The notes under the pieces are model-generated. The model saw only the letters and a program-made list of their open reading frames with translations. It was not told the origin of the DNA and ran no database searches. Positions 1-47,021 of a DNA stretch of 47,021 nucleotides are shown here, one piece after another. Both the position numbers and the translations under genes were made by a program. The DNA is from Deinococcales bacterium (GTDB lineage Bacteria; Deinococcota; Deinococci; Deinococcales; JAAFIG01). The stretch spans positions 1 through 47,021 of the forward strand of contig JAAFIG010000038.1 in assembly GCA_013298595.1 (NCBI GenBank). The letters run 5' to 3'. Positions within the stretch are counted from its first letter, which is position 1; each line of letters begins with the position of its first letter.

Positions 1-105
1 TGTATGCGGAAGTTACTTGTGATGTTGAACGCCATGGCTAGAAGTGGTGAGGTGTTTGATGCGAATTGGGTAACGAAACGCAGGGGTGTGGGTGTTGAAA
101 TTTGA
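1..105 (+). CDS. IS110-family transposase, C-terminal fragment
   Basis: The frame starting at base 1 is open for 34 codons to a TGA at 103-105. It contains RKLLVMLNAMARSGEVFD, which resembles the conserved C-terminal end of IS110/IS1111 transposases (typically RKLLvxLNAmxrxg). The N-terminal DEDD catalytic domain and the C-terminal Ser domain proper lie outside the window. The family call rests on this short tail alone. With only about 21 bases after the stop, a guide (bridge) RNA, if this element has one, would be on the 5' side as in the IS110 subgroup, not downstream as in IS1111. Confidence 0.6.
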   Translation, partial: CMRKLLVMLNAMARSGEVFDANWVTKRRGVGVEI

Positions 106-126
106 CAAATCATTACAGTTGCTACA
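1..126 (+). mobile_element. 3' end of an IS110-type insertion sequence (left copy)
   Basis: These bases are an exact reverse complement of 46895-47020. They contain the end of a transposase reading frame (stop at 103-105) followed by only 21 shared non-coding bases; the two copies diverge at base 127, which marks the element boundary. IS110 elements lack long terminal inverted repeats, in keeping with what is seen. The rest of the element lies outside the window. Because both window ends stop inside the same repeat, these are probably assembly break points. Confidence 0.7.
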
Positions 127-172
127 CGGAACGAACGAGATTTTGCAAAACTCAGCGATTTGTAGTCAAGTC

Positions 173-1453
173 CTAATTGCTGGTCTGATTAATCATCGAC
201 AAACACATTTCGTCAGCTGTGCCTTCGCCCCACGCGATGTAACGCATCTCGAGGGGATTGTTACCAATCAGCGGGCGGTTGTTTGCGCTGTTATCAAACA
301 CGCAACTGACTCTGATTACATCACCTTTTTTGGCTTGTACAGGATCTTTAAACCAGTAATTTCCTTGCCAGTGAAAATCCCATTTTGGTATGCTCAGCAA
401 GGTTTTCGATTTACCTTCAGAAATCAGTTCGACTTTAATTTGCTTACCCATTAAGTGCATATGCCCAGCCACGCTGTACAAAGTAGCATCCGCCCGTATA
501 CTTCGATCGCATGAAGTGCTGATACTCGAGGCATCACCAACTGGTTTTTGGTAATCGGCTAAGGTACGTTTGCATAAAAGTAAAGCCCCTGCCGATTGTC
601 GCGCTGCGAATGCACCCACTTCGGCAACATTACGGGCAATGGTCGTATCGCGTTGACAAGCTGGTGTGTTAATACCATCAGGACAAGGTAATTCTACTGG
701 CGCAATGTAATTTTGGTTGCGTATAGCTTGTAATTGTGAACCTACGGGTGCATACGTCAATTCAAAACTCGAGCGGTCCGTACCAAGCCCATTAGCTAAG
801 TTATAATGTATTTGCATCACATACATCGACCCTTTTTTGACAGGAACACCAATACCAGCAGGTAAGTTTCCCTTACCAGCGCCTGGAACCCAAGCACCAA
901 CCCAAGCACCGCCTCTGCCGCCTGGATTCTCGAGGTCTGACGCACCTACATTGGCATTGCCTCGAGTACCCAATCCAGACCCACCAAAACAACTCCAACC
1001 TTCACCATTTTTATTAAATTCTTTAGCTTCGGCAACATTTTCTGGTTCTACTCGAAATAAAATCGCATGATGCACCATTTTGCCATTTTGCGGCAAGACA
1101 TAAACACCTGTTACAAAACGATCTGACTCGAGTTTAGGGTCTATTAAAAAACAATGGTAATCGTCTAAACCGCCTTTTTCATTTTTAGGAGCATAAGCAG
1201 TTGTGCTCAATTCGTAGCGAACCGTTTCGCCCGCCGCTGCCGCGTAAGTTGGCGCTAGTGTCCACGGCACATCTGCAATATTTTCATTGACAAAATGTCC
1301 TTGATGAGGCGTATCATGCCCTATTGTTGTCGCACTTTGTACTCGAGAAATAGCGCTAAGCCAAGCACCTGACTGCGAAACACCAGTCGCAATGGTGATA
1401 CCAAGCCCAAGGAGAGCAAAAGCTCGAGTTAAGCGAATAAATTTTTGATTCAT
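173..1453 (-). CDS. PHM/DBH-like copper type II monooxygenase, exported
   Basis: A secreted protein of about 426 residues related to the copper type II, ascorbate-dependent monooxygenases (peptidylglycine alpha-hydroxylating and dopamine beta-monooxygenase fold). Candidate ligands visible in order are an HH pair (MVHHAILF), a later His (MQIHYNL), an HxH pair (GHMHLMGK) and a Met near the C-terminus (DEMC), matching the CuH set (three His) and CuM set (two His, one Met). The start was set at the ATG at 1453 because GGAGGT lies just upstream; this leaves a signal peptide beginning MNQKFIRLTRAFALLGLG. The c-type cytochrome gene lies 80 bp upstream on the same strand and could supply electrons. 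The substrate is unknown; many bacterial homologues are uncharacterised. Confidence 0.72.
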   Translation of the reverse strand: MNQKFIRLTRAFALLGLGITIATGVSQSGAWLSAISRVQSATTIGHDTPHQGHFVNENIADVPWTLAPTYAAAAGETVRYELSTTAYAPKNEKGGLDDYHCFLIDPKLESDRFVTGVYVLPQNGKMVHHAILFRVEPENVAEAKEFNKNGEGWSCFGGSGLGTRGNANVGASDLENPGGRGGAWVGAWVPGAGKGNLPAGIGVPVKKGSMYVMQIHYNLANGLGTDRSSFELTYAPVGSQLQAIRNQNYIAPVELPCPDGINTPACQRDTTIARNVAEVGAFAARQSAGALLLCKRTLADYQKPVGDASSISTSCDRSIRADATLYSVAGHMHLMGKQIKVELISEGKSKTLLSIPKWDFHWQGNYWFKDPVQAKKGDVIRVSCVFDNSANNRPLIGNNPLEMRYIAWGEGTADEMCLSMINQTSN

Positions 1454-1533
1454 AAATACCTCCAAAATGAAATTAGGCACGCCACGAAGATTTGGATTAA
1501 GCGAGGCATGTTTCGCCGCTACGGCTTAAAGCA

Positions 1534-1920
1534 CTACGGTTTTTGTCCAGGCAATGGTTTACCTAATGGTGCACCAGCCTTAACCCAATCAAACAGCATT
1601 TGCTTACTGGTTGCACCAAGGCGAGTATCGTTCAAATATGGCGGAGAATCCTCTCCGGGCATCCACGGAGGCATATTGCCTTGCGTCACCACTCGAGCGA
1701 TTTCCGAGGCATTCGTTACTGCATCCTGACCACTGGTTAGAGTAAACGGTGCAATACCACCCACCACATGACAAGCAGTACAGTGTTTCTCGAGAATTGA
1801 TTGCACATCGGTGTAATAAGTTGGCACATAATTCTGCGCTTGGCTCGAAGGGGTTTTTATCGTACCAAGAAACAGAAAAGCCATGCAGACAGTCAGTGCT
1901 TTCGTAGCAGTCAGTTTCAT
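1534..1920 (-). CDS. Exported c-type cytochrome-like haem protein
   Basis: A small protein of about 128 residues with a signal peptide (MKLTATKALTVCMAFLFLG) and one CxxCH haem-attachment motif (CTACH, in ILEKHCTACHVVGGIAPF), followed by a Met-rich MPPWMPG segment that may give the distal Met ligand. This resembles the cytochrome domain found next to, or fused with, PHM-like copper monooxygenases in other bacteria. An upstream GTG at 1941 is an alternative start; neither start has a clear Shine-Dalgarno sequence. It is divergent from the two-component system that begins at 1999. Confidence 0.72.
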   Translation of the reverse strand: MKLTATKALTVCMAFLFLGTIKTPSSQAQNYVPTYYTDVQSILEKHCTACHVVGGIAPFTLTSGQDAVTNASEIARVVTQGNMPPWMPGEDSPPYLNDTRLGATSKQMLFDWVKAGAPLGKPLPGQKP

Positions 1921-1986
1921 AGCAGCTAGTTTGCCAAGCACTTATGGAGAAGTTATGGAGATTATTCTTAACAACAAAAAAAGCCG

Positions 1987-1992
1987 TACACT
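1987..1992 (+). promoter_or_regulatory. -10 box of a leaderless promoter for the response regulator
   Basis: TACACT lies six bases before the GTG at 1999, and there is no Shine-Dalgarno sequence between them. Transcription would start at or beside the start codon. The last bases of the box form part of a CTCGAG palindrome (1991-1996). Confidence 0.45.
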
Positions 1993-1998
1993 CGAGTA

Positions 1999-2652
1999 GT
2001 GCAAATCCTACTGATCGAAGACCAAGGAGAAATCAGTCAAGCCTTACAAGGGTTTTTGATGCAGCATGGTTTTGTTGTCCAAGTTGCTGACAACGGACTC
2101 GAGGGCTTGCGATTGTTTCACCAGCAACAACCTGATGCGCTGCTGTTGGACATCATGATGCCCGGAATTACAGGTCTGGAGGTACTACGAGAAGTCCGCG
2201 ACACCAGCCAAGTTCCTGTGCTGATTCTGACCGCTCGAGCCGATGAACGCGAAATACTCGAGGGGTTTTCGTTAGGTGCAGATGATTACATCACCAAACC
2301 ATTTCGTATGCTCGAGGTGCTGGCTCGGTTACAAGCTGTGTTGCGCCGCAGTGGTAAACAAAAAAGCGTTTTACACGGCGCAGATGGATTGATACTTGAT
2401 CTTGAAGCTCGAGAAGCCAAATTGCATAACAAATCACTTGAGTTAACCGTTGCCGAATTTGAATTACTACAAAAATTAGTACAAAACCCAAATCGGGTGT
2501 ACACCCGTTCTGAACTGATCGAAATCACCAGTGCCGAACGTGAAACCTTAGAACGAACTGTGGACACACATATCAAAAATGTACGCAAAAAAATTGGCAC
2601 ACCGCATCATGTAGAAACAGTTTACGGCATAGGATATCGCTATGAACTTTAA
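1999..2652 (+). CDS. OmpR-family response regulator
   Basis: A 217-residue response regulator. The receiver domain (about 1-115) shows the acidic pocket near residues 8-9, the phospho-acceptor Asp51 (LLLDIMMPG), Thr78 (ILTARA) and Lys100 (ITKPF). A winged-helix OmpR/PhoB DNA-binding domain follows (about 125-215; ERTVDTHIKNVRKKIG). The GTG start is supported by the -10 box six bases upstream. The stop overlaps the start of the histidine kinase by 11 bases, so the two are co-transcribed and probably translationally coupled. The signal and targets are unknown; the divergent copper monooxygenase/cytochrome pair is a natural candidate. Confidence 0.9.
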   Translation: MQILLIEDQGEISQALQGFLMQHGFVVQVADNGLEGLRLFHQQQPDALLLDIMMPGITGLEVLREVRDTSQVPVLILTARADEREILEGFSLGADDYITKPFRMLEVLARLQAVLRRSGKQKSVLHGADGLILDLEAREAKLHNKSLELTVAEFELLQKLVQNPNRVYTRSELIEITSAERETLERTVDTHIKNVRKKIGTPHHVETVYGIGYRYEL

Positions 2653-3739
2653 GCGCCGACCACTGCCCCTGTGGGCGCAACTGGCATTTCCAATGAGCAT
2701 TGTGCTAATTATTATTGTGCTTGGTACTGTAGTGGTTTACGAAACCTATTGGGATCAAGTGCTACAACGGGTTTCACCAAGTGTTCGAGTAGCCATCGAA
2801 AATGTTCGCCCTTCACCAAAATTTTTTTTGGCAGACAACCGAATTCGTCCGAGTCCTGGGGTGATTAGTTTTATTTTCAGTGCAACTGTGATTATTTTTG
2901 TCAGCCTGATGATCTCGAGGCGTATCCTCAAACCCATCGAAGCACTTGAGCGCAGTGTCAATGCCATAGCTAAACACGGCAACAAGCCAATTAAAATTCC
3001 TCGAGGGCAATTTGCCGAAGTTTTGACTGGAGTTGCAGAATTAGCTGCAAAACTCGAGCGTAGCGAAAATGCTCGGCGCATTGCCAATGCCGCCATTGCC
3101 CACGAACTTCGCACCCCATTAACGGCATTGCGTGCTCGAGTCGAAAGTTTTGAATTTGGTGTTTACCCATTGGAAATTAAAGAAGTTATTAAACTGCATT
3201 CTTCACTTGATTTACTCGAGAAACTGATTCGGGATTTACAAACAGTTTCCTTATCTGAAGCAGGTGAATTACACTTAGAAATCCAAACACTCAACTTTGC
3301 TACTTTGCTACTTGAGGTTCGTGAAGATTTGCAATTACTAGCAGAGCAAAAAAACATAAGCCTTGAGTACCAAGTAAATCCCGAAATCAACATCCAAGCC
3401 GACCCGCAACGCCTTCGTCAAGTACTGCATAATTTACTCGAGAATGCCATTCGTTACACACCAAACGCTCAACGCATCAAAGCCTCCGCAGAAATCAACA
3501 ACCAACACCTCGAGATTCGTATTATTGATAGCGGTAATGGCGTGCCAGACAACGAACTCGAGAAATTATTTACTCCGTTTTATCGTTTAGAACCAAGTCG
3601 CTCGAGGGAATTTGGTGGCAGTGGGTTAGGCTTAGCTGTAGTACAAGCAATTGTCACTGCTCATCGTGGCACAATTCGCGCCACTCGAGCTACCATCGGA
3701 GGACTCGAGATTCAGATTTTACTGCCAATAAACGCCTAG
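2642..3739 (+). CDS. Sensor histidine kinase
   Basis: A 365-residue membrane kinase partnering the overlapping OmpR regulator. TM1 (about 14-34) and TM2 (about 74-92) enclose a short outer loop of about 40 residues. They are followed by a HAMP-like linker, a HisKA domain with phospho-acceptor His154 (AHELRTPLTALRARVE), and a HATPase domain with an N box (LHNLLENAIRYTPN), a G1 box (DSGNGVPD) and a G2 box (GGSGLGLAVV). All catalytic motifs are intact. The small sensor loop gives no hint of the ligand. Confidence 0.92.
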   Translation: MNFKRRPLPLWAQLAFPMSIVLIIIVLGTVVVYETYWDQVLQRVSPSVRVAIENVRPSPKFFLADNRIRPSPGVISFIFSATVIIFVSLMISRRILKPIEALERSVNAIAKHGNKPIKIPRGQFAEVLTGVAELAAKLERSENARRIANAAIAHELRTPLTALRARVESFEFGVYPLEIKEVIKLHSSLDLLEKLIRDLQTVSLSEAGELHLEIQTLNFATLLLEVREDLQLLAEQKNISLEYQVNPEINIQADPQRLRQVLHNLLENAIRYTPNAQRIKASAEINNQHLEIRIIDSGNGVPDNELEKLFTPFYRLEPSRSREFGGSGLGLAVVQAIVTAHRGTIRATRATIGGLEIQILLPINA

Positions 3740-3783
3740 CAGCCTCGAGCACCATAAGCTTCGACCTATTTCATCTACTTGCT

Positions 3784-4215
3784 TCATGGTTTTGCAGAAC
3801 GCCACATTGGTCCAATCGCTAGAAGTAATACCAAAATGTTAAAAAACACATTTGAAAGTGTTCCAGAGGCAATAGAGCCAGCACTGTCTAACACAAACCA
3901 AGCAATCAAACTGGTTAATACAGTTCGGCGCACAAGCTCGGGTGATAAATCGTATATCCATTGCCTTAAACACCAAATCATCACGCCCCATCCAAACAAA
4001 AAACCACCTGTTAGCGCAGCTAAAAATCTGACGGTGGGGTCTGAAATTGTTTGTAAACCATCCAACGGGAATTTGAGCAAATCAAGTGTCCAGCGGGCAG
4101 GTTCTGCTGTAGCAGCCATTGTTCCTAAAAAAAAGACAGGACCAAAAGATCCAACAACAACAGCTGTAATGATTAACCAGAACTTATGAAATTTGTGCGA
4201 CGACATTGTATTCAT
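3784..4215 (-). CDS. Small multi-spanning membrane protein, unknown
   Basis: A protein of about 143 residues with four likely membrane helices (around FWLIITAVVVGSFGPVFFLG, FLAALTGGFLFGWGVMIW, VLTSLIAWFVLDSAGSIA and NVFFNILVLLLAIGP). The start was chosen at the second of two adjacent ATGs because AAGGTG lies about seven bases upstream; the longer frame has no such site. I do not recognise the family with certainty; it looks like small excinuclease/DoxX-size membrane proteins of unknown role. It lies 128 bp downstream of a TetR gene on the same strand and may be its target. The gene contains no CTCGAG, unlike nearly all its neighbours. Confidence 0.6.
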   Translation of the reverse strand: MNTMSSHKFHKFWLIITAVVVGSFGPVFFLGTMAATAEPARWTLDLLKFPLDGLQTISDPTVRFLAALTGGFLFGWGVMIWCLRQWIYDLSPELVRRTVLTSLIAWFVLDSAGSIASGTLSNVFFNILVLLLAIGPMWRSAKP

Positions 4216-4343
4216 CATTTTCACCTTATGCAGCATGATTTTTCCAAGCAAGCAAATAATTTTTTCAAGTATTTGCTCGATCAGCATTTTTCTAAAATTG
4301 TTAACGTGCTACAAAATAAATAGCACCTACTTGGCAATTGTCT

Positions 4344-4895
4344 TCATCGCGCACCTCCCTCGAGTAATACCAACATGTTCTCAAAAGCAGCTTCGATACG
4401 TTCGCGTTCTTCAGTAACCATATAATCTAAAAGTAAACCGCTAAAAACACCCACCACCAATGTTGCTGTGGCAGCATTTGAACCAGCCATTTGCGCTGAA
4501 ACCAAACCGACCCAACGATGTAAGGTGTCTCGAGCAAATTGTTGATATTCAGTTTTGCCCTGTATGGACAGCACTTCAAGCTCTAAAGTCAGGCGGATGA
4601 GTGGGGTCATTTCTTTTGAAGTGAAATGCTGCCACAGCAAACGCAATGCTTTTGTTGGGGTAACTCCAAGGCTCAGGTTAGTGAACATGGCTTGTTGTTG
4701 CTGTTGGCTGTAGATCAGCACTTCTACAATTAAATTTTCTTTACTGTCAAAGTGGTATAGCAGCATTCTCGCTGTTGTACCAAGAGATTCGGCAAGTGCA
4801 CGTAGACTTAGGTCTTGCAATCCGTGCTGCAAAATATACCCGACGATTTTCTCGAGAAGTTCGGCTTTAATTTGAGGAATTGGTTTTCTACCCAT
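4344..4895 (-). CDS. TetR-family transcriptional regulator
   Basis: A 183-residue regulator with an N-terminal three-helix HTH (about 10-57; DLSLRALAESLGTTARMLLYHF) and a helical ligand-binding domain. The start was set at MGRKPIP rather than the longer frame because that frame would run through a palindromic operator two bases upstream of this ATG. The operator position implies autorepression and possibly a very short leader. The downstream membrane protein gene (3784-4215) is a likely co-regulated partner. The inducer is unknown. Confidence 0.85.
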   Translation of the reverse strand: MGRKPIPQIKAELLEKIVGYILQHGLQDLSLRALAESLGTTARMLLYHFDSKENLIVEVLIYSQQQQQAMFTNLSLGVTPTKALRLLWQHFTSKEMTPLIRLTLELEVLSIQGKTEYQQFARDTLHRWVGLVSAQMAGSNAATATLVVGVFSGLLLDYMVTEERERIEAAFENMLVLLEGGAR

Positions 4896-4897
4896 AA

Positions 4898-4929
4898 TGT
4901 AACACCTGTTACGTGTAATAAGTGTTACA
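4898..4929. promoter_or_regulatory. Palindromic operator, probably TetR autoregulatory site
   Basis: A 32-bp near-perfect palindrome begins with TGTAACAC and ends with GTGTTACA, with further matching GTTAC/GTAAT steps inside. It is centred about 20 bp upstream of the TetR start codon and ends two bases before it. This arrangement is usual for TetR operators that overlap their own promoter. Confidence 0.65.
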
Positions 4930-5110
4930 TGAATTCTTATTGTTGTCAAGCCTATTTGCAATCAACTTCATCCTTTGTATCCCAAGACTCGTCAGTTACT
5001 TTGTCAATATTGCAGCCTATAAATTGCCCAGTATGTCCTGCTTAAATAAGTCACTCGAGAGAATTGAGCAGACTTGTCTCTGCTCATCAAAACGCAGTGA
5101 GCACCGCCCA
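4930..5110. other. Intergenic region upstream of the TetR gene
   Basis: An AT-rich gap between the TetR operator and the 3' end of the exported-protein gene. I see no convincing gene, RNA or strong terminator; open frames here lack start signals and family resemblance. Confidence 0.4.
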
Positions 5111-5668
5111 TCAAAGCCGGCAATCTGAACGCGTAAAAGCCTCGAGCAGCACAGGCTTTGGCGTAACTCGAATCACAGTTGCTGAAAATACATGATCCAC
5201 ATGAAAAGTTTTTTGCACACAGCTCGAGGCTCGAAAACGCCCTTGATTAAAACGAAACGAGACTTTACTCCAACCGCGCCAGCCCGAACCTACAAACTCG
5301 AGAATCGAAAAACCATTTTTTTCAACAACAATCCGAGCAAAGTTCTTATCTGTTCGCGCCCAAGCGTCCCCTGCTACACCAGAACAAGCAGCACAACGAA
5401 CCACAGTGTTAGCTCGAGCAACACGGACTAAATTACCCTGAGAATTCCGCAAGAAAACCAATAATGGGCGTGGTGTGTTGGCATTTTGGATTTCATCCCA
5501 AGAGCGAACCAAAACAATCAGATCTTGTAAACCATCGTTATTGATATCGCCTCGGAAAATTCGCATCATGGCATGACGGGCTGGAATACCGTTTTGTAAA
5601 ATCTGTGTATCTCGAGAAGCAGCCAATACTGGCATGGCTAAAAGTAAAACACACAAAATCCGAATCAT
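5111..5668 (-). CDS. Exported protein with one FG-GAP/EF-hand-like Ca-binding loop
   Basis: A 185-residue protein with a short signal peptide (MIRILCVLLLAMPVLAAS) and a DxNxDGxxD loop (RGDINNDGLQDLIVLVR, about residues 38-55), typical of FG-GAP/VCBS repeats and dockerin-type calcium loops. The remainder is beta-rich with four Cys residues (RCAACSG, SSC, SDC) that could form disulfides outside the cytoplasm. Its ATG overlaps the stop of the MoxR gene (ATGA), so it belongs to that operon. No enzymatic motif is visible. Confidence 0.6.
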   Translation of the reverse strand: MIRILCVLLLAMPVLAASRDTQILQNGIPARHAMMRIFRGDINNDGLQDLIVLVRSWDEIQNANTPRPLLVFLRNSQGNLVRVARANTVVRCAACSGVAGDAWARTDKNFARIVVEKNGFSILEFVGSGWRGWSKVSFRFNQGRFRASSCVQKTFHVDHVFSATVIRVTPKPVLLEAFTRSDCRL

Positions 5669-6597
5669 ACGGTTTCGACAGGCACTGGAACTCGAGCCAG
5701 AATATCTTTGACTAAACTTTCGCTGGTCACACCACGCAACCGCGCTTCGGCTCGCAGCATTAAACGATGCCCTAGCACAGGAATGGCAGCCCGTTTAATA
5801 TCGTCGGGTAGCACAAATTCTCGCCCTGCGATGGCAGCTAAGCCTTGGGCAACACCTTGCAAAGCCAAACTGGCTCGAGGGCTGGCACCTAGGTAAACAT
5901 CGGCTAAACCGCGCGAGGCATGTACTAAACGCACAATGTATTCTCGTAATTCTGCTTCTAAATGCACTTCTCGAGCTGATCTTTGCGTGGCAATCAATTC
6001 ATCAGCACTCGAGACAGATTGTAACTCCGCAATAGGGTGTACTCCTCGTAAACGATGCAAAACCTCGAGTTCTTCGGATGCACTTGGGTAGCCAACATTG
6101 CAACGCACCAAAAACCGATCTAATTGGGCTTCGGGCAACCGATACGTACCATCCATTTCAACTGGGTTTTGCGTAGCAATAACAATAAATGGTTTAGGCA
6201 ACGCCCTTGTTTCACCGTCGGCACTCACTTGCCCTTCTGCCATTGCCTCGAGCAGCGCCGATTGGGTTTTTGGGGTGGCTCGGTTGATCTCGTCGGCAAG
6301 CAGTAAATTGGTAAACACAGGTCCTTGCACAAATTCAAACCCTGTCCCTCGGTACACACTGACCCCAGTCACATCGGATGGCAATAAATCTGGCGTGAAC
6401 TGCACTCGCTTAAACCCCAAGCCAAGCGAAACCGCTAAAGCCCGAGCCAACATGGTTTTACCAGTGCCTGGCACATCCTCGAGTAGCACATGCCCACCTG
6501 CCAGAATCGCAGCTAACGTAATCTCGAGGGTGTTTTCCCGACCAACAATGACTTTAGCAACATTTTGTTTTATTCGATCTGCGAAATCTTTTATCAT
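5665..6597 (-). CDS. MoxR-family AAA+ ATPase
   Basis: A 310-residue ATPase with Walker A GTGKT (residues 44-48), Walker B LLLADEIN (Asp102/Glu103), a sensor-1 ATQNP and the family signature GTYRLPEAQLDRFLVR. MoxR ATPases act as chaperones that mature or activate membrane-associated complexes, usually with DUF58 and von Willebrand A proteins. The start MIKDFADRIK was chosen over a longer frame because AGGGGA lies directly upstream. It follows the two DUF4129 membrane-protein genes on the same strand, and its stop overlaps the next start by ATGA. Confidence 0.9.
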   Translation of the reverse strand: MIKDFADRIKQNVAKVIVGRENTLEITLAAILAGGHVLLEDVPGTGKTMLARALAVSLGLGFKRVQFTPDLLPSDVTGVSVYRGTGFEFVQGPVFTNLLLADEINRATPKTQSALLEAMAEGQVSADGETRALPKPFIVIATQNPVEMDGTYRLPEAQLDRFLVRCNVGYPSASEELEVLHRLRGVHPIAELQSVSSADELIATQRSAREVHLEAELREYIVRLVHASRGLADVYLGASPRASLALQGVAQGLAAIAGREFVLPDDIKRAAIPVLGHRLMLRAEARLRGVTSESLVKDILARVPVPVETV

Positions 6598-6725
6598 ATT
6601 CCCCTTTTTCGTAAAGGCGAACCCTGTGTTCGCTCTGCAACCAACAATATTGATCTGATTCCTAAAATTCTCGTGTGCATAACAATTTCTTAAAATTCTT
6701 GAGCTAGGGCAAAGCACACCTACGA

Positions 6726-8108
6726 TTAGTTATTTCCTTTCATGATTTGCTGCACAGCTTTTTCTGCCTCGAGTGCATTGGTTTCAGCTACCAATTTTCC
6801 ATAGCGAACAGGTTCGTATAAATTGGTGATTTGTAAAGCAAAAACCCGAGAGATTGGGTTGATATCAGCAAACCGCTGAGCAAATTCAAGTGGTGTTTCG
6901 GCTTCGCCACGAGGCACACCTTGGGTTTTTGCAAACTCGAGAAAGTTTTGGTACGCAGCTCGAACGCGGTTGCTGGCAGCTTGGCTGGGTTGACTCGAGG
7001 GTGGAGTATCAGATTCGGATTCTGGTTTGATGATATGGGTTTTGCTTGCTTTACGAAATGCCCAGTACAGCATCAGCAGCAGTATCGCTGCCAGTACATA
7101 GGGTATCCATAGGTTCTGTGCGAATCTGCTGCGTCTGATTTGTTCCTCGAGTTCAGCCAGTGTCAATTGCCTTGTTGTACCTTCGCCATTCATTTGGTTC
7201 AAGGTTGTATCTGAATTCATTGCTGGGTTAGAGCCACCATTAGGAGCCGATAAAGCCAGTGCAAAGAGCACTGTGGCAAGAATTAATGCAGCAATAATAG
7301 GCATGAAATCCCAGAGTTCTATTTTTTTTGCACCCTTAGATTTCTGCACACGCGAACCCAAAATATAAAACCCCAATATCATCACAAGGGCATATAACAT
7401 GGCAGAGACACTGGCAAAAAAAGCATCTTGAGTTGAGTCTATTTTGTTTGTGGCTCGAGGTAAAATTTTTTCGCCTTGGGTATTGACGCGAGGTTTCTCG
7501 AGTTCTTTTTGTTTGGCAGGGCTTGCCTGATTGATACTCGAACCACCAGTTGGGTCTTGCAAACTACGAGGCATTGGTAAAATAAAGGCAAAGGCAGCGA
7601 CTGCAGCAAAAATGAGGGTTAAATTCCATATATGATTTCGCTCGAGATGAAAAGGATTTGCTCCTGCAAAAGTGTGTTGTTTTTGCATTGCAGCTAGGGC
7701 TGCTAAACCCAGTACCGACAGCAAACCATAAACACTTGGCATAGCCACCAATAAGACCAATGGTGCAAACCAAGCCCAGACCGAACCATCCTGAACACCA
7801 TCTAAGGCAAGCCCAAGCAAATACGCTAAAACCAGCACCGCAAAAAATGGCGCAAGCCGAGCAAATAAAGCAGCCCCCAAATCAAAAGGTGGCAAAATAA
7901 ACACCACTGCCGCCGCGTAAACACTGGCAAATACGGCATATTGTCTCGAACCTATGTTTAACCGAACCAGCCACGGCAATAAAACCGCTGCTACTACGGC
8001 AATAAAAGGTAATACTGTTACCCATTGGACAGCTGCTAAAGCCAGCAACAATAACGCTAACCAAATTCTATTGCCGATGCGTATTGGGTCAGCAATATGA
8101 GTCACCAC
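6726..8108 (-). CDS. Polytopic membrane protein with C-terminal DUF4129 domain
   Basis: A 460-residue protein with about eight membrane helices in the first 150 residues and around 235-280, one more near 335-350, then a cytoplasmic C-terminus. The segment PRGEAETPLEFAQRFADINP followed by NLYEPVRYG matches the DUF4129 domain that ends TgpA-type transglutaminases. The transglutaminase Cys-His-Asp core itself is absent. The GTG start lies one base after the stop of the preceding DUF4129 gene, so translation is probably coupled. The MoxR gene follows about 130 bp downstream. Confidence 0.68.
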   Translation of the reverse strand: MVTHIADPIRIGNRIWLALLLLALAAVQWVTVLPFIAVVAAVLLPWLVRLNIGSRQYAVFASVYAAAVVFILPPFDLGAALFARLAPFFAVLVLAYLLGLALDGVQDGSVWAWFAPLVLLVAMPSVYGLLSVLGLAALAAMQKQHTFAGANPFHLERNHIWNLTLIFAAVAAFAFILPMPRSLQDPTGGSSINQASPAKQKELEKPRVNTQGEKILPRATNKIDSTQDAFFASVSAMLYALVMILGFYILGSRVQKSKGAKKIELWDFMPIIAALILATVLFALALSAPNGGSNPAMNSDTTLNQMNGEGTTRQLTLAELEEQIRRSRFAQNLWIPYVLAAILLLMLYWAFRKASKTHIIKPESESDTPPSSQPSQAASNRVRAAYQNFLEFAKTQGVPRGEAETPLEFAQRFADINPISRVFALQITNLYEPVRYGKLVAETNALEAEKAVQQIMKGNN

Positions 8109-8109
8109 T

Positions 8110-9423
8110 TCACGTTACCATCTGTGGTGAAACTGTCGGCGGCAAAATTGTGGCAACTTCTTGCTGCCAAACTGCAAGAGCCGTTAAAACTGCCTCGAGT
8201 TCTTGTTGACTCGGATTTGCCCCATATCGCACTCGTTGGTAAGCCTCGGTAATGATTTGCGTTTCGGCATACAAAGCAGGGTACTGAATATGAACCATGC
8301 TCGAGAATTCTGTGGGGGTTTGCGTTACACCTCGGCGCAATTCGAGGTCACGCAGCCAGACGAGCCATTGGTAATACGCAGCTCGGACAGCGTCTTTGGG
8401 TAACAGATATCTCAGTGGCTCGAGTACTGAGTTACCAGCCACAGCTTCGGAAGGGGGTTTATTGGTACGACGTTTATTTTGCATACGAGCAATGACAAAT
8501 AAGGCAAGAAAAAAGAGAATCCCTAACCATGCCATGCTGCTCGAGGTAAGTGGGAGTTGAATGGTTGTTTTAGCAATACTTGGTTGTATCAGGCTCAAAA
8601 TGACCAAACTAAGAAGAATGCCTACTATCAGTAACCATATCCATAGTGATTCTTTCTTTTGTGGCATACTATTTGGTTGTGGCATAAATCGTAATTTTTG
8701 TCGCACATACGCAAAATATGCCAGCATCAAACCAAGTACAATGGTGAAACCGATTGAGTTACTGAGCAATTCACCCGAGAATCCTGTGGCTCGAGTTTGG
8801 TCAATATTGGACAGAAAAGTCGTTCCCTCCAGAGATTGACTAGCCTCAGTATCGTTGTTAGCAAAACGAAAACTTGGAATTTCAGGTGTTACAAAAGGTG
8901 AAACTCGAGGAAATGGTAAAAATAAAGCCACAGCAGTGAGCATCAGTAGCGCCATTAAAACCGCAGCCCAATCCCGCACTCGAGAGCGTTGCTCGGCGAC
9001 TCGAGCCAAGGCTAACCCCGCGTGCCAACGCGCATTTGATACCAGTATCAGCAATAAAATACCTGCTAAACCAAGCGCTGATGGGACGAAACACCATAAA
9101 CCTGCTAACCAAATCCAGGGGCGTGGTGTGTCCTCCTCGAGACCCCATAACACTTGTAAAAACACAAAAGCCGCAAGCGCTACCTGGATTGCAATAATCG
9201 CGTGTTCGTTGGGTGTTGCTGCAGGTAATAAAAAAGCTATCAACACAGGCACAACCAATAAATTCAGTCCTAGCCGATGTGCTCGAGCTTGGGTAGCAAT
9301 CAAAGCAATGGTCAGTAAAACCACTACAAAAGCAATACCTACCACGATTTTCTCGATCTGTGGCAGAACAACCAACATCATGCTCAATAAACTAGGCAGC
9401 AAAACTTGCCATGGTAATGGCAT
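8110..9423 (-). CDS. Polytopic membrane protein with C-terminal DUF4129 domain, first of two
   Basis: A protein of about 437 residues, similar in layout to the next gene: many N-terminal membrane helices, one later helix (around SSMAWLGILFFLALFVIARM) and a DUF4129 C-terminus (RRGVTQTPTEFSSMV ... EAYQRVRYG). The two are probably diverged duplicates. The ATG at 9423 (MPLPWQVLL) was chosen; a longer frame from TTG at 9507 adds a polar extension unlike a membrane-protein start. This is the first gene of the MoxR operon, transcribed away from the oxidoreductase at 9613. Confidence 0.66.
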   Translation of the reverse strand: MPLPWQVLLPSLLSMMLVVLPQIEKIVVGIAFVVVLLTIALIATQARAHRLGLNLLVVPVLIAFLLPAATPNEHAIIAIQVALAAFVFLQVLWGLEEDTPRPWIWLAGLWCFVPSALGLAGILLLILVSNARWHAGLALARVAEQRSRVRDWAAVLMALLMLTAVALFLPFPRVSPFVTPEIPSFRFANNDTEASQSLEGTTFLSNIDQTRATGFSGELLSNSIGFTIVLGLMLAYFAYVRQKLRFMPQPNSMPQKKESLWIWLLIVGILLSLVILSLIQPSIAKTTIQLPLTSSSMAWLGILFFLALFVIARMQNKRRTNKPPSEAVAGNSVLEPLRYLLPKDAVRAAYYQWLVWLRDLELRRGVTQTPTEFSSMVHIQYPALYAETQIITEAYQRVRYGANPSQQELEAVLTALAVWQQEVATILPPTVSPQMVT

Positions 9424-9518
9424 GAAAATCGGTTCATCCGCCGTGATACCAATTTGATCTGACTTTCTGGATTGCACCGATTCACAATACTGCGTTTTTT
9501 GTTGCAATGACGAACAAA

Positions 9519-9540
9519 TTTGTCATGAATTTGTGACAAA
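9519..9540. promoter_or_regulatory. Inverted repeat in the divergent promoter region
   Basis: TTTGTCA, eight bases, then TGACAAA form a 7-bp inverted repeat between the divergent DUF4129 and oxidoreductase genes. It has the size and position of an operator, but no cognate regulator is evident in the window. Confidence 0.35.
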
Positions 9541-9612
9541 ACCATGTCTCTAAGCTGGCAAACCAACTCGAGCAATTACAATTCAAAGCGTGAAATCCGA
9601 GGAAAACCAAAA

Positions 9613-10653: not shown

Positions 10654-10685
10654 ATAGTTAAATTCCCTGACCTGATTCACAAGAT

Positions 10686-10830: not shown

Positions 10831-10854
10831 TTAACCCGCACTTGTCTTCTCGAG

Positions 10855-34007: not shown

Positions 34008-34015
34008 ACACACTC

Positions 34016-34597: not shown

Positions 34598-34602
34598 GAT
34601 TT

Positions 34603-36657: not shown

Positions 36658-36669
36658 TGGTGAGACTCC

Positions 36670-37419: not shown

Positions 37420-37421
37420 GA

Positions 37422-38978
37422 TTACTCCTTACCACCTGTTGTTGCTGCACTTGCCACAAAGTAACGTTGGAAAATTGCAAATAAAACAATCACAGGGATA
37501 GCTGAGATAATCGCACCTGCCAGAATTAAGCCTTGATCACCTGCACTGCCGTAAATGCGGTTAAAGCTGTTTAAACCAATTGGCAATGTAAAATTGTCTT
37601 GCGGTGATTGCAGCACAATCAAAGCCCAGAAATACTCATTCCAAATACCTTGGGCACTTAAAATCGTCAAAGCGCCAAGAGCAGGAGTTGTGAGCGGCAA
37701 GATAATTCGCCAGAAAATCTGAAAAGGCGTTGCACCATCAATCTTGGCTGCTTCCTCGATTTCCTTAGGCAGGGTTTCAAAGAATTGTTTCATGAAAAAT
37801 ACCTGACCAGCCACAACAATACCTGATAAGGTCAAGCCCCAAATACTGTTTAACAACCCAAGGTTCTTTAAAATTAAGTAATTACTGATAAAGGTAACTT
37901 GCCCCGGCACAGTCATCACAAACAGCACCAAACCAAACAACAAACCTTTCATCGTGATTGGATTATTCTCGAGGATACGTCGGGCTAAAGAGGTTTTACG
38001 CTGTGCGTACTTTTGTTCGGCAGTTCGATTATCTCGAATATCATGTCGTCCAAACTCGAGTCGGGCAATCGCATAACCAGCTAAGCAAGCAATAATCAGC
38101 GTCACAAGGGTACGAATGATGACCACCAAAAATGAGTTGCCAATCCAACGTAAAAATAAACTCGAGCCTGTGGCTTGTGAACGGGTATCTTCAAAAACAC
38201 GGAAGTAATTCCTGAACACATAGGTCAGTACACCCGGTGCAATGTTCACATAACTCTGGATTTTGGGGTATTCAAACGGCACTTCTTCATTTGCAGCTTG
38301 CGGATTTTCACGGCGCGATGGGTCGAGCGTGGCATTCTCAAAAATATATCCACGCTCAGCTTCCATTGTCATTGGGGTACGGCGCAGCTCAGGTGCAGCT
38401 TTTTGAGGGTCATCCACATTTTTCGCATTGGCTGGATAGGTGATATCCCAAGTGTAGGTCACTCGCGTACCCGCTGTGTTGTTTTTTAAGATAATAGGCT
38501 CAGTTGTAGATACCCGTAGATTCTGAATTTGCACATAGTCGCTGGCGTAATCAAAGTTACCCAAAGCAGCAGCTCCAGCACCTGGACGCAACCGTGGAAT
38601 CGTAACTGAAAGCGGTTTAGGCGTTTGATCTTTTGGTAAAACAGTGTCAGGCACAACATAACTGGCAGTGAAGGGAATGGTTGAGCCGGGTCGAATACCG
38701 CCAATCCAAGGATTACCACTGCCCTTTGTACCCAATGACCAAGCGGCTGCCCAGTTACGAGGACGTAATTCCTCAAAGTAAACACGAGGCGGACTTTCTA
38801 AAGAGTCCACTTTGAGACTGGATAACGCACCCATCAACAGTGGTCCCATAAAAATCACTGAGAACAACAGCAACAAGCCGTAAATCAGGATGGCGTATGA
38901 CCAACGACGACGCATCACCCAAGCCATTGGCACTTCAACACCGTTGACACGAACAGTATTGGTTAAAGCAGAATTCAT
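37422..38978 (-). CDS. ABC sugar permease, MalG type, with a large extracytoplasmic insertion
   Basis: A 518-residue permease, far longer than the usual 270-300. TM1 (about 27-52) is separated from the remaining helices (from about 275) by an insertion of about 190 residues rich in Pro and Thr that should lie outside the membrane. A second extra loop of about 40 residues (GRHDIRDNRTAEQKYAQRK) precedes the next helices. The EAA loop EEAAKIDGATPFQIFWRIILPL, which contacts the ATPase, is intact. No ATPase gene is in the operon, so a shared MsmK-like ATPase is expected. It overlaps the upstream permease by ATGA. Confidence 0.88.
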   Translation of the reverse strand: MNSALTNTVRVNGVEVPMAWVMRRRWSYAILIYGLLLLFSVIFMGPLLMGALSSLKVDSLESPPRVYFEELRPRNWAAAWSLGTKGSGNPWIGGIRPGSTIPFTASYVVPDTVLPKDQTPKPLSVTIPRLRPGAGAAALGNFDYASDYVQIQNLRVSTTEPIILKNNTAGTRVTYTWDITYPANAKNVDDPQKAAPELRRTPMTMEAERGYIFENATLDPSRRENPQAANEEVPFEYPKIQSYVNIAPGVLTYVFRNYFRVFEDTRSQATGSSLFLRWIGNSFLVVIIRTLVTLIIACLAGYAIARLEFGRHDIRDNRTAEQKYAQRKTSLARRILENNPITMKGLLFGLVLFVMTVPGQVTFISNYLILKNLGLLNSIWGLTLSGIVVAGQVFFMKQFFETLPKEIEEAAKIDGATPFQIFWRIILPLTTPALGALTILSAQGIWNEYFWALIVLQSPQDNFTLPIGLNSFNRIYGSAGDQGLILAGAIISAIPVIVLFAIFQRYFVASAATTGGKE

Positions 38979-40072
38979 TGGTTCACCCCTTCGTCTGATA
39001 AGAAACGGCGCTGAATTTGTAATAAAACCAATGTAATAACTGCTAATAAAATGGCGGCTGCGCTGGCTAAGCCAACTCGAGATTCGGCACCACCACTAAA
39101 GACATTGTGATACACATAAAATGCCAGCGTGACCACCGTATCTAAGGGTGATGTCCCTCCTAGCAAGGCAGCTTGGTCAAACATTTGCAGCGTTCCAATG
39201 ATACCTATTGAAATGACGTAAAAAGTCACAGGACGCAATATAGGAATGGTCACAAAACGAATTTGCTGTATAGGACTTGCTCCATCAATACTGGCGGCTT
39301 CATAAACACTTTGTGGAATACCCTGTAAACCTGCTAGAAAAGTCAACATCAATGTTGGCATAGTGGTAAAACTGTTCATCAAAATGATCATCAGGATCGG
39401 ATAAGAAATAAAGCCAAATAAGCGATCCGAAGTGGATAACCACAAGAGTGGTGTTGGATCAGCACTACCGACACGAACCACACCACCAGCGTTAAGCACA
39501 ATCGTTCCAATCACAGCGACCAGCAACGAAACAACAAGTAAAGCTGGGTCAAATGGTGATGCGGGTAAGCCTCGAGAACGCTCAAAAGCAACTTGTAAAG
39601 CTTGTACAACAATCACAATTGCAAGACCAGTTAAGAGCAGTGGTAAATAATTAACAAAAGTGGTGCTCAGGTATGAAATCAGACCCGTTGGGCGAAACAA
39701 CCAAATAAAAATAAGTGTGGTCACCGCACTCGAAGCAATGCTAGGGAAATAATAAGCTGTTCTAAAAAAACCAATTCCTCTGAGTTTCTGATTCATCACA
39801 ATAGCCAGTAGCAATGCACCAACGGTTTGAATCAGGGTTGTCAAGATAGCAAAAGTAAATGTGTTAATAAGAGCTTGGATAAATAATGAATCTTTAAAAA
39901 CATCAGCATAATTTTGTAAACCAACCCAGTCACTTTTATCAAATAAATTATAATTGGTAAACGAGTACCAAATAGTGCGAAGAAAAGCGAATAAGAAAAA
40001 TACAACCAAGCCAATCAGAAACGGCAACAAAAACCAAAATGCAGTCAGGTTCTCTCGAGTTCTCGCATTCAT
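38975..40072 (-). CDS. ABC sugar permease, MalF/UgpA type
   Basis: A permease of about 365 residues with six or more membrane helices and the EAA loop VYEAASIDGASPIQQIRFVTIPIL (in parts). An extra hydrophobic stretch (around LLVVSLLVAVIGTIVLNAGG and its flanks, about 185-245) makes it longer than the usual 300. The ATG at 40072 was chosen over a longer frame because AAGAAGG lies upstream. A strong hairpin stands between it and the binding-protein gene, which may keep permease expression below that of the binding protein. Confidence 0.88.
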   Translation of the reverse strand: MNARTRENLTAFWFLLPFLIGLVVFFLFAFLRTIWYSFTNYNLFDKSDWVGLQNYADVFKDSLFIQALINTFTFAILTTLIQTVGALLLAIVMNQKLRGIGFFRTAYYFPSIASSAVTTLIFIWLFRPTGLISYLSTTFVNYLPLLLTGLAIVIVVQALQVAFERSRGLPASPFDPALLVVSLLVAVIGTIVLNAGGVVRVGSADPTPLLWLSTSDRLFGFISYPILMIILMNSFTTMPTLMLTFLAGLQGIPQSVYEAASIDGASPIQQIRFVTIPILRPVTFYVISIGIIGTLQMFDQAALLGGTSPLDTVVTLAFYVYHNVFSGGAESRVGLASAAAILLAVITLVLLQIQRRFLSDEGVNQ

Positions 40073-40092
40073 ACAACCTTCTTTTGACAGTA

Positions 40093-40114
40093 GGGGCGAG
40101 TACATACTCGCCCC
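40093..40114 (-). repeat. REP-like hairpin between binding-protein and permease genes
   Basis: A near-perfect palindrome: GGGGCGAGTA, two bases, TACTCGCCCC. It opens with GTAGGGGCG like the repeats at 10767, 30207 and 46878. It has no T tract and sits about 20 bases before the permease start, resembling the palindromes between malE and malF that protect the upstream mRNA. Confidence 0.7.
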
Positions 40115-40136
40115 CCAGGAGGAAATTCAAACGGGT

Positions 40137-41378
40137 TTATTTGCCCATAACTTTATTGACTGCTGCCTGAGCTTCACGCACTGCTTGGTCAACAGTTTTT
40201 TGACCATCCATTGTGCTATTTAAGGCTTCGTCAATGCCACGGAACCAAGCATTACCAAATTTGTCAGGTGCGAAAGAAACGGCATTACCTTCGGAAGCAC
40301 CACGGAACACATTACGGAATGCAATATTTTCTACACCGGCACCACCCAAGTATGGATCGTCTTGTAAGGAAATACGGCTAGGCAAAGCAAGCCCGCCACG
40401 CAATACGAATTGTTGTGCTTCTACGCTGGTCAACGCGTTCAAAACCTTCACAGCAGCAGCTTTGTTCTTGGTACCAGAGTGAATTGCCCATGCCACAGTG
40501 TAAATCAGATTGCCGCGCTTATTGGTTTGTGGATCACGTGGTAACAAGGTTGTACCATACTTGAGGTTTGGTGCTTGGTCACGCAAGAAACCAAGTGCCC
40601 AGCCACCTTCAAAAGCAGTAGCGACTTTGCCACTCTTCATGCAGTCGCCACCCCAACCAGCATTAATTTGACCTGGTTTGACTGCCACGCCACTCTTGAC
40701 CAGATCAGTATAGAACTTAAAGGCACGTTTGAAATTGCTGTCCAGCACAGTACGACCACCTTGAATTGGTTTCCAACCAGTGCTGGCTGCAAAAGCACCA
40801 AAGCGGCTATACTCGGCAGGGAAACAGGTACCTGTGTAACCTTTACCTAAGGCTTTTTGTACAGCTGTGGTTTTGGTCGCAAAATCATTCCAATTGTCAT
40901 TGTCATCTGGATAAGCCACTTTGGCTTGGTCAAACAAATCTTTGTTGTAGTACAAGACCAAAGTATTAAAATCCTTAGCAATACCATATTGCTTGCCACC
41001 ACTCGAGAAAATATTGTTCAGGCTTGGCAAGAAGTCTTTTGAGTTAACCAAACCATTTAATGGCAAAATTTTACCACTGGCGATCAAACCTTTGGCAGCG
41101 AAATCCTCGAGGTAAAACAGGTCTGGTGCAGTACCAGCCGAGAGTTGCGTAACTATCGAAGTGCCAAAATCAGCTGTCGGTACGTATTTTACATCCACAC
41201 CATCAGCTGCCAGTTTGGGTTTCACAAATTTTGCAATTAATTCGCTAACCAAGGCTGTATCTGTTTGACCATCGTAACCACCAATGGTGATCACATTGGC
41301 TTGCCCTTGAACCATACTACCTGCCAACACTGCGGCTGCGCCGAGTGCCAAACCTGTTGCTACTACACGCTTTTTCAT
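40137..41378 (-). CDS. Extracellular sugar-binding protein (family 1) of an ABC importer
   Basis: A 413-residue MalE-like binding protein with a signal peptide (MKKRVVATGLALGAAAVLAGS) and the family features VITIGGYDG, LSAGTAPDLFYLEDFAAKG, DFNTLVLYYNKDLF and AFEGGWALGF. There is no Cys lipobox (the corresponding position reads LAGS), so it is likely a soluble or otherwise tethered protein, not a lipoprotein. GGAGGAG precedes the ATG. It lies 65 bases after the LacI regulator gene. The ligand is probably an oligosaccharide. Confidence 0.9.
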   Translation of the reverse strand: MKKRVVATGLALGAAAVLAGSMVQGQANVITIGGYDGQTDTALVSELIAKFVKPKLAADGVDVKYVPTADFGTSIVTQLSAGTAPDLFYLEDFAAKGLIASGKILPLNGLVNSKDFLPSLNNIFSSGGKQYGIAKDFNTLVLYYNKDLFDQAKVAYPDDNDNWNDFATKTTAVQKALGKGYTGTCFPAEYSRFGAFAASTGWKPIQGGRTVLDSNFKRAFKFYTDLVKSGVAVKPGQINAGWGGDCMKSGKVATAFEGGWALGFLRDQAPNLKYGTTLLPRDPQTNKRGNLIYTVAWAIHSGTKNKAAAVKVLNALTSVEAQQFVLRGGLALPSRISLQDDPYLGGAGVENIAFRNVFRGASEGNAVSFAPDKFGNAWFRGIDEALNSTMDGQKTVDQAVREAQAAVNKVMGK

Positions 41379-41443
41379 AAACTCTCCTCCGAGCCTATCT
41401 GAGAAACGAATTGCCGAACAACGCCATTAAAAAGGTAAAAGCA

Positions 41444-42430: not shown

Positions 42431-42457
42431 ATGCGATTTCCTTTTGGATATGAGTTT

Positions 42458-42471
42458 TGTAACCGGTTTTA
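42458..42471. promoter_or_regulatory. LacI-type operator upstream of the regulator gene
   Basis: The sequence TGTAACCGGTTTTA matches the LacI-family pattern TGnAAnCGnTTnCA except for its last two positions, and is centred on the AACCGGTT palindrome. Placed 28 bp before the regulator start, it would suit autorepression and control of the divergent hydrolase gene. Confidence 0.6.
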
Positions 42472-42543
42472 TGAGTGTAATCGGAAGAGCTTCCAGTTGT
42501 CAAGGGGTTGACAGCCAAAAAATTCGGTGCTATTTCTGGGAAT

Positions 42544-43257: not shown

Positions 43258-43340
43258 GCCATTTTTTGAGGTGCAAACAAGCCATTCAGTCCAATACAAA
43301 ACGAGAGTCAACACCGTAAAATAAAGCATAGGTGTTACTC

Positions 43341-44339: not shown

Positions 44340-44349
44340 GGAGAACACC

Positions 44350-45690: not shown

Positions 45691-45709
45691 CCAAACAATT
45701 GGTCAGATT
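45684..45709. terminator. Bidirectional terminator between convergent genes
   Basis: A perfect 11-bp stem AATCTGACCAA / TTGGTCAGATT with a 4-base loop, flanked by an A tract on one side and a weaker AT-rich stretch on the other. It overlaps the cca stop codon. Confidence 0.8.
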
Positions 45710-45720
45710 CAACATTTATT

Positions 45721-46677
45721 TTAGAATTGCAAAGGTGCGGGCACAAATTCGTAACCTTCGCCGCTGCGTTTACGAATATACCCAACGCCAGGAAATGGAA
45801 AGTGATACGCAGTAACCAGCATTTTTTCGGCTGCTACTCGAGCAAATAACGCAGCTCGAGTTTTCACAGCGGCTGGCTTGTCGTTATCAAACCCTAAATA
45901 GGCTGTTGGGTACTGCAAGCTCAGCAAATAATGCCCTGCTGCATCACCAAAAAGCATCATTTGATTTGATCCACTCGAGACCAAAACACTCTGATGCCCT
46001 GGGGTATGCCCGAAGGATTCAACCGTGGTTAAGCCTGGCACAATTTCTGCCCCGCCTTTAACAAGTTTAAGTTTTTCAGCTTGTGAGACAATATTCTTGG
46101 TCACACCTGCGCTAACTGTTCCTGTAGCAGGTTTTGTCCAAAAAGTATGTTCTGCTTCACCAGTTATCACTCGAGCATTGGGGAAAATCGCTTTGCTATC
46201 GGCGTTGGTCATACCATTGATATGGTCACCATGAAAATGCGTCAAGAAAACTGTATCTATATCTTCGGGTTTATACCCTGCTAAGGCTAAATGGTTGAGC
46301 AATTTACCTGTTGGAGCATTAGCATTAACACCACTGCCTGAATCAATCAACACTTTATTTTTGCCAGTATCCACAAGCACAGGATGAAAATTATTACGAA
46401 CAGCCGCTGGATCAATAAAATTTTCAACAAGTGTGGCTTTGAATTGATCTTGCAGTTCTGGGTTTGCACCCCAATTGGGTAACAATGCACCTGGGTTACC
46501 TTGTCCATCAGACAGTACCACCACGGTGATATCACCGACTTTAATGCGGTTAAAACCAGCTCCATTTGGTATTGCCAAAGTACCAGCTGTTTGTGCATTC
46601 ACGCTAACCCCACCAAGCGTCGCTGCCGCTCCTGCCAAACCAAATGCCTTTAGTGCTTCCCGTCTTGAGATACCCAT
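45721..46677 (-). CDS. Tat-exported metallo-beta-lactamase-fold hydrolase
   Basis: A 318-residue protein with a twin-arginine signal (SRREALKAFGLAGAAATLGG) and an MBL core: VLIDSGSG, the zinc motif HFHGDH (HxHxDH), HTPGHQSVLV, FGDAAGH and a late AYHFPFPGVGY His. All metal ligands are kept, so it should be an active zinc hydrolase outside the cytoplasm. The family includes lactonases (quorum quenching) and other hydrolases; the substrate is unclear. AAAGGAG precedes the ATG. Confidence 0.87.
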   Translation of the reverse strand: MGISRREALKAFGLAGAAATLGGVSVNAQTAGTLAIPNGAGFNRIKVGDITVVVLSDGQGNPGALLPNWGANPELQDQFKATLVENFIDPAAVRNNFHPVLVDTGKNKVLIDSGSGVNANAPTGKLLNHLALAGYKPEDIDTVFLTHFHGDHINGMTNADSKAIFPNARVITGEAEHTFWTKPATGTVSAGVTKNIVSQAEKLKLVKGGAEIVPGLTTVESFGHTPGHQSVLVSSGSNQMMLFGDAAGHYLLSLQYPTAYLGFDNDKPAAVKTRAALFARVAAEKMLVTAYHFPFPGVGYIRKRSGEGYEFVPAPLQF

Positions 46678-46815
46678 AGTATTTGCTCCTTTCAGTTGAG
46701 AACAAAAGTCTACCCGAGAATTTGTTTTCCGACTGCTCTAAGTAATACTACTGAATTGTAGGTTTTCTACCTTTTTTTATGTCTGTCTCTAAGACATTGG
46801 TGTTAGGTTCAAAAG
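46678..46815. other. Promoter region of the metallo-hydrolase gene
   Basis: No gene is seen. A short GTAG/CTAC hairpin followed by CTTTTTTT (about 46758-46778) might be a weak terminator on the plus strand. Confidence 0.3.
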
Positions 46816-46894
46816 TAGACCTCGGGCGATAGTAGCCAAATTCAATCTCACACGGGAGGGGACAAGCCCCGCCCCTACATTAAAAATCGTTTCC
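46816..46894. repeat. Truncated second copy of the MITE-like element
   Basis: It starts TAGACCTCGGGCGATAGT and follows the reverse complement of 10830-10757 closely, including the GTAGGGGCG palindrome (46854-46878, reversed). The match is lost where the IS110-type end begins at 46895, which suggests that the insertion sequence landed in this element. Confidence 0.7.
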
Positions 46895-47021
46895 TGTAGC
46901 AACTGTAATGATTTGTCAAATTTCAACACCCACACCCCTGCGTTTCGTTACCCAATTCGCATCAAACACCTCACCACTTCTAGCCATGGCGTTCAACATC
47001 ACAAGTAACTTCCGCATACAA
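46895..47021 (-). mobile_element. 3' end of an IS110-type insertion sequence (right copy)
   Basis: Bases 46895-47020 are the exact reverse complement of 1-126; one extra base (47021) belongs to the same element. The window therefore stops 127 bases inside this copy. It borders a REP-like/MITE-like repeat, a known type of IS110/IS1111 target. Confidence 0.7.
46916..47020 (-). CDS. IS110-family transposase, C-terminal fragment (right copy)
   Basis: The same 34-codon C-terminal frame as at 1-105, ending in TGA at 46916-46918 and containing RKLLVMLNAMARSGEVFD. The rest of the gene lies beyond the window. Confidence 0.6.
   Translation of the reverse strand, partial: CMRKLLVMLNAMARSGEVFDANWVTKRRGVGVEI

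Follow-up and report, generated by a model that had tools for sequence, protein, structure and literature searches.

Why should one six-base palindrome recur some 258 times within a bacterial contig, and what keeps it there? This question is raised by the 47,021-base stretch analysed here (the window), the complete contig C32 of a genome (G000; 4,582,226 bases, 68 contigs) from a family of Deinococcota, akin to Thermus and Meiothermus, that is uncultured or little known. An earlier note on the window had counted the palindrome, CTCGAG, at about 258 copies against about nine expected from base composition, 66 of them in the first 10 kb, and had likened it to HIP1, a highly iterated palindrome (HIP) of cyanobacteria. 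Exact counting returned the same numbers: 258 copies over positions 1-47021, both intergenic and within genes of either strand, with 66 over positions 1-10000 and a composition-based expectation of 9.1.

Scale of the excess in genome, genes and relatives

Under Markov models of order 0, 1 and 2 the expected count in the window is 9.1, 4.9 and 18.1, respectively (a 28-, 52- and 14-fold excess), and by the order-2 ratio CTCGAG ranks above all other hexamers, the runners-up being words that overlap it. A Markov-corrected count over the whole genome, proposed in the earlier note as a check, upheld the excess: 27,159 copies are present in 4.58 Mb (5.93 per kb, or about one per 170 bases), 30 times the number predicted by base composition and 14 times that of the order-2 model. 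A HIP numbers hundreds to thousands of copies per Mb, well over expectation, and CTCGAG fits this with an excess of 14-57-fold across Markov orders 0-2. The reversed word GAGCTC occurs 15 times in the same genome, where ~901 copies would be expected. The density of CTCGAG stays within 3.2-7.9 per kb throughout 21 sampled stretches (447 kb in total), and base frequencies at the six positions flanking it are near background, so that, as the earlier note had supposed, the word is not part of a dispersed repeat family.

Also borne out was the claim that the word occupies all codon phases, both strands and intergenic DNA. Noncoding DNA of G000 holds 284 copies against 8.9 expected (32-fold), and the noncoding enrichment is 29-36-fold in the four genomes of the family (G000-G003) and 34-fold in G012, a member of the sister family. 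Within genes of G000 the three codon phases contain 1,357, 570 and 461 copies, compared with 112, 54 and 20 after shuffling of synonymous codons (2,388 versus 187 altogether, 13-fold); phases 1 and 2 are enriched 13-16-fold over codon shuffles across the four family genomes and G012. The word is thus of the HIP type also in being genic and intergenic alike, with no longer repeat around it. Around gene starts, between 200 bases upstream and 300 bases downstream, its density is roughly constant. The possibility, raised as a potential refutation, that codon or codon-pair preference alone accounts for the excess has a negligible chance of being correct: a large part of the excess in relatives of 65-70% GC is indeed in-frame CTC-GAG, but in the family of G000 such a codon effect is refuted by both the shuffles and the noncoding enrichment. 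The same low rating applies to a by-product of palindrome avoidance, as avoiding other palindromes cannot lift one of them 30-fold over composition.

The pressure on this word reaches into the proteins. CTCGAG encodes 1,331 of the 1,994 Leu-Glu dipeptides in G000, and relative to amino-acid composition Leu-Glu is in 2.33-fold and Ser-Ser in 1.56-fold excess while Glu-Leu is at 0.93-fold; the pressure therefore changes proteins, that is, a DNA-level pressure overrides protein sequence.

Nearly all other palindromes are avoided in G000 (median observed/expected of the hexamers 0.2-0.3). For example, in the samples from this genome GGCC was found 8 times versus 1,174 expected and TTCGAA once versus 128, and CTTAAG, GAGCTC and CCGCGG have no copies at all (window plus the 20 stretches L004-L023). 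The second-highest hexamer palindrome, TTGCAA, reaches 2.75-fold, which leaves CTCGAG as the single large exception to a near-total avoidance. Extreme palindrome avoidance was also seen in the other family genomes and in genus g11 of the sister family.

All four family genomes, which span three genera and 45-59% GC, contain 26,600-28,200 copies of CTCGAG and only 4-15 of GAGCTC (4-9 in the three besides G000). In the sister family, the density is 6-8 per kb in genus g11 (G012 and G016) and 3.6 per kb in G008. The word is therefore shared among related genomes, as HIPs are: the four of the family, from three genera, and G012 and G016 of the sister family. A milder excess, noncoding DNA included, extends to Meiothermus (5-9-fold), Marinithermus (G006, 7-fold) and Truepera (G009, 3-fold), suggesting an old trait of the order; in Thermus (genus g7) CTCGAG is about as frequent as GAGCTC, without excess. 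Some of these names are presumptive: we take G025 to be Meiothermus ruber DSM 1279 and G014 to be Oceanithermus profundus, and those of G006, G009, g13 (Meiothermus) and g7 are provisional assignments, made in part from kinship to G025. Among the matches listed for a control panel of 66 loci from unrelated bacteria, the median observed/expected ratio of CTCGAG was 0.61 and the maximum 6.8, in an actinobacterium of 73% GC. Overall, the excess is real, extreme, order-wide and of the HIP kind. A separate observation concerns G004 of the sister family, which has 683 CTCGAG versus 1,525 GAGCTC in 2.3 Mb (one site in a 20-kb sample), opposite to the pattern in its relatives; a search with PF04555 detected no XhoI gene in G004 to account for this scarcity.

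Comparison of orthologous positions revealed that sites are retained in an all-or-none manner. In 29 kb aligned with G001 (74.8% identity), 114 of 178 sites are kept (64%), compared with 22% for control hexamers with four G/C (nominal P 6e-32), and one-mismatch forms make up 5% of the orthologous positions versus 34% for controls. Even among the lost sites, the one-mismatch form is found in 9 of 64 cases, against 44% in controls (nominal P 6e-7; 1e-12 with three genomes pooled). The fractions kept relative to G002 and G003 are 37% and 47%, with 1 and 6 one-mismatch forms. In the 447 kb sampled, the perfect word has 2,666 copies versus 88 expected, and the 18 one-mismatch words together have 1,253 versus ~1,700 (~0.7-fold), which means that nothing short of the final change that completes the word is favoured. 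The commonest of these neighbours are the transitions TTCGAG (1.58-fold) and CTTGAG (1.44-fold), and gains of CTCGAG occur mostly from transition neighbours such as CTCAAG. One region with few sites is L005:8001-13000, which has a GC content of 0.38, a D12-like methylase gene and just 1.3-2 sites per kb; it is probably a recently acquired defence island, where a low density would be expected if CTCGAG accumulates after DNA arrives.

Some other features of the window deserve mention. Its site density has a local minimum (1.7-2.3 per kb) at 37001-41000, over genes for a sugar ABC-transporter permease and binding protein (assigned by NCBIfam), and a complete uvrB gene (excinuclease ABC subunit B) lies at 25560-27593. 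Two stretches of ~30-40 bases within 30130-30236 (near AGGTGCTATCTTACGAGCAAGAAGACCCTCCCC and GGGGCGACCCTTGTGGTCGCCC) have dozens of matches at 85-100% in G001, G002 and G003; they are copies of a dispersed intergenic repeat of the family. A search against Rfam gave no match in the window.

Nucleases and methylases that might read CTCGAG

The earlier note had argued against an active XhoI-like nuclease in the host, and the nuclease family (PF04555) indeed has no match in any of the four family genomes, nor in G004, G008, G012 or G016. Elsewhere in the order it is present in G018, G042 and G048, with a broken copy in G009. Since restriction depletes words, restriction avoidance cannot cause enrichment and was rejected as an explanation. 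Within genus g10 the presence of XhoI was likewise discarded as a determinant, the CTCGAG/GAGCTC ratio being alike in genomes with the nuclease (G018, G042, G048) and without it (G010, G014, G030).

Methylases offered more leads. In G009 an intact M.XhoI-type methylase gene adjoins an XhoI nuclease gene broken by stop codons (L140, G009:C1:1093856-1096226); this locus captures the passage from a restriction system to an orphan methylase. The enzyme encoded beside the broken gene (L087) and its Meiothermus relative L091 are 48% identical gamma N6-adenine methylases, and L091 resembles M.BseCI and M.TaqI. Enzymes of this type occur in four Meiothermus genomes (G015, G025, G037 and G073), where no PF04555 nuclease was found; the gene of M. 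ruber is at G025:C1:2437478-2439139. No match to them at 1e-20 was obtained in G000, G001, G003 or G012, and G002 is the sole family genome with a match, a distant relative (E 4.6e-27). A survey of five Pfam classes (C5, N6/N4, D12, Eco57I and N6_Mtase) yielded no methylase common to all affected genomes; different enzymes of the same specificity may have replaced one another across them.

The methylases of G000 itself comprise one beside a NotI-family nuclease (L051), a gamma enzyme with an uncharacterised neighbour (L107), a D12-like enzyme from a stretch with few CTCGAG sites (L077), an enzyme of the N6/N4 type with permuted order (L061), an Eco57I-class protein of 1,264 residues that is PglX-like by size alone (L088) and an orphan HhaI-like C5 methylase (L024). 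The last is followed by the same gene in both G000 and G001. Its relative in G012 (59% identical) stands beside an HNH gene and, from this neighbourhood, looks like part of a restriction system; no close relative was found in G002 or G003. As a side observation, a C5 cytosine methylase gene of G003 (L035, G003:C40:29451-31355) apparently carries an in-frame intein, inserted right at the catalytic Pro-Cys motif.

These data bear on the suggestion, also made in the earlier note, of an orphan CTCGAG methyltransferase, whose marks on the word would serve mismatch repair, replication or regulation, with selection acting on the density of marks. This idea, a special case of the perfect-site recogniser proposed below, is a possible but doubtful one. 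It is favoured by the existence of a CTCGAG-specific orphan enzyme in Nocardia (PMC4752239), by the M.XhoI-type enzymes that accompany no detected nuclease in Meiothermus and a broken one in G009, and by the conservation of L024 with its neighbour in two family genomes and the presence of a relative in G012. On the other hand, four strongly affected genomes have no M.XhoI-type match, L024 has no close relative in two of the family genomes and an HNH neighbour in G012, and G059, with no M.XhoI-type match either, has 9,811 copies of CTCGAG, as many as the Meiothermus genomes that carry the enzyme. Such a methylase thus could not be confirmed.

Maintenance of the word

The explanation that we favour, with a probability of about 0.6, is that CTCGAG is a word of the HIP type in this family and in its relatives, the site of a recogniser of the perfect word that confers a small advantage at each site. 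We infer that a sequence-specific DNA factor exists for which the word would be a genome-wide recognition site, and which would read only the perfect six bases. Almost anywhere in the genome, a perfect site would then bring a slight advantage at the level of the population, through which existing sites would be kept and new ones would accumulate; the advantage may consist in natural selection for the site or in a transmission or repair bias of the same effect. A stationary model puts the scaled advantage at equilibrium at ~2Ns = 3.7, applied to the last step to the perfect word only. By analogy with the cyanobacterial HIPs, the factor would most likely be tied to DNA methylation, which is the leading but unproven candidate mechanism. 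Less likely than not is the bolder view that an unrecognised factor other than a classical methylase favours perfect CTCGAG only, giving an order outside the cyanobacteria a genome-wide palindrome of its own, at one per 170 bp, and rewriting the proteome (Leu-Glu 2.3-fold) of one family and one sister genus.

Several points weigh against the perfect-site recogniser. The searches found no cognate CTCGAG methylase, nuclease or reader, and the mild enrichment of TTCGAG and CTTGAG reflects some decay of sites. Selection and biased repair or conversion lead to the same equilibrium, the estimate of which assumes stationarity. The P values from pairwise alignments take neighbouring hexamers as independent and are thus too small. 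Finally, the word counts are whole-genome, but most statistics draw on 10% of an assembly that is 94% complete.

Among the rivals, a pure mutation or repair bias, in which an enzyme (Vsr-like, or acting as a methyl-directed ratchet) converts near-miss words to CTCGAG with no benefit from the site, appears unlikely. It would fit a pressure that is alike in coding and noncoding DNA and disturbs protein sequence, the rarity of one-mismatch forms at orthologous positions and the prevalence of gains from transition neighbours. However, a Vsr-like restorer of C:G predicts depletion of CTTGAG and TTCGAG, which are the most common neighbours, and Vsr-like repair was rejected for this reason; moreover, we know of no enzyme that would favour one six-base word over all 18 of its neighbours. 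Spread of the word by drive, as a DNA uptake sequence in a transformation system that prefers CTCGAG-bearing DNA for recombination, is improbable. Uptake words are genome-wide and shared by related species, Thermus, which is among the host's relatives, is naturally competent, and known uptake words occur in genome-maintenance genes. In line with this, genes that read like AddA/AddB-type (L011:9011-14172) and RecN (L014:7447-9033) repair genes are among the densest in CTCGAG, at ~10 per kb, although this may merely reflect Leu-Glu-rich helical proteins. Known uptake words have 9-12 bases and occur about once per kb, unlike a six-base word at 6 per kb, and the competent genus Thermus has no excess of CTCGAG.

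We see as little prospect for a landing site of an abundant nucleoid protein whose sites must be spaced, the kind of chromosome-organising role that the earlier note had entertained. The sites do exclude each other below ~20 bp: in G000 the pair correlation of CTCGAG is 0.06 at 6-10 bp, 0.31 at 10-15 bp and 0.58 at 15-20 bp, with a tail to 40 bp, and in four other genomes pairs closer than 15 bp are at 0.39 of expectation. No such short-range exclusion is seen for 551 control hexamers, whether paired directly or inverted, which rules out general hairpin avoidance as its cause. The exclusion is nevertheless confined to genes, with 15 noncoding pairs versus 17.6 expected in G000 and 38 versus 22.7 in G002, so that a protein footprint was dropped as its source and a protein that organises the spacing finds no support. 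The best explanation of the exclusion is the burden on a protein of two forced dipeptides lying only a few codons apart. The suggested check for spacing periodicity turned up a 3-base codon signal only and nothing convincing at 10-11 bp. In a side observation on G002, convergent intergenic regions carry 13.7 CTCGAG per kb (noncoding DNA, L284-L293), and noncoding sites show an excess of spacings of 20-40 bp (84 versus ~32), the sites possibly being paired as terminator hairpins.

Comparison with known systems

What HIP1 does is a long-standing question, and the evidence on such words comes almost entirely from one phylum. HIP1 (GCGATCGC) is accompanied in cyanobacteria by alternate HIPs, namely GGCGCC in Calothrix PCC 7103, GGGATCCC and TCGATCGA, most of which occur at 500-2,500 per Mb, with a candidate methylase for each; a methyl-directed repair ratchet has been proposed for HIP1 (Elhai 2015, PMC4390886). 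The parallel drawn in the earlier note is sound: CTCGAG is likewise a massively overrepresented palindrome, genic and intergenic and common to related species, and a hexamer HIP is already known. It differs in being another word in another phylum (a host that is not cyanobacterial and a word that is not GCGATCGC), in its higher density of ~5,900 per Mb, in the visibly changed Leu-Glu content, and in that no recognisable CTCGAG methylase was found here, while all the cyanobacterial cases have a candidate.

In the open-licence literature, we found no paper that describes CTCGAG as a word iterated across a genome. The remark in the earlier note that no such report was known to its author holds in this respect, but not in full, as an orphan CTCGAG methylase has been described in Nocardia, with clusters of the motif next to dnaA at the origin of replication (Blow et al. 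2016, PMC4752239). That system shares with ours the palindrome and the lack of a restriction partner; it differs in that the motif is clustered at dnaA there and spread genome-wide here, and no relative of the Nocardia enzyme was identified here. XhoI and PaeR7I recognise the same word, and a nuclease homologue exists elsewhere in the order, but it is absent from the family of G000, and restriction would deplete the word. The uptake sequences of Neisseria and Haemophilus are similar as short words iterated genome-wide and common to relatives; they are longer, non-palindromic and sparser than CTCGAG.

The effect on protein composition matters for any reading of amino-acid usage or codon bias in the affected genomes. 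As the milder form of the excess is present in Meiothermus ruber, of which a type strain is in culture and PacBio data are public, the question of methylation is directly testable. Relative to HIP1, the word, the phylum, the higher density and the effect on protein composition are new, and a second, independent and much denser case makes it possible to separate the features common to HIPs (the palindrome itself, the avoidance of other palindromes, a methylase or not) from the accidents of cyanobacteria.

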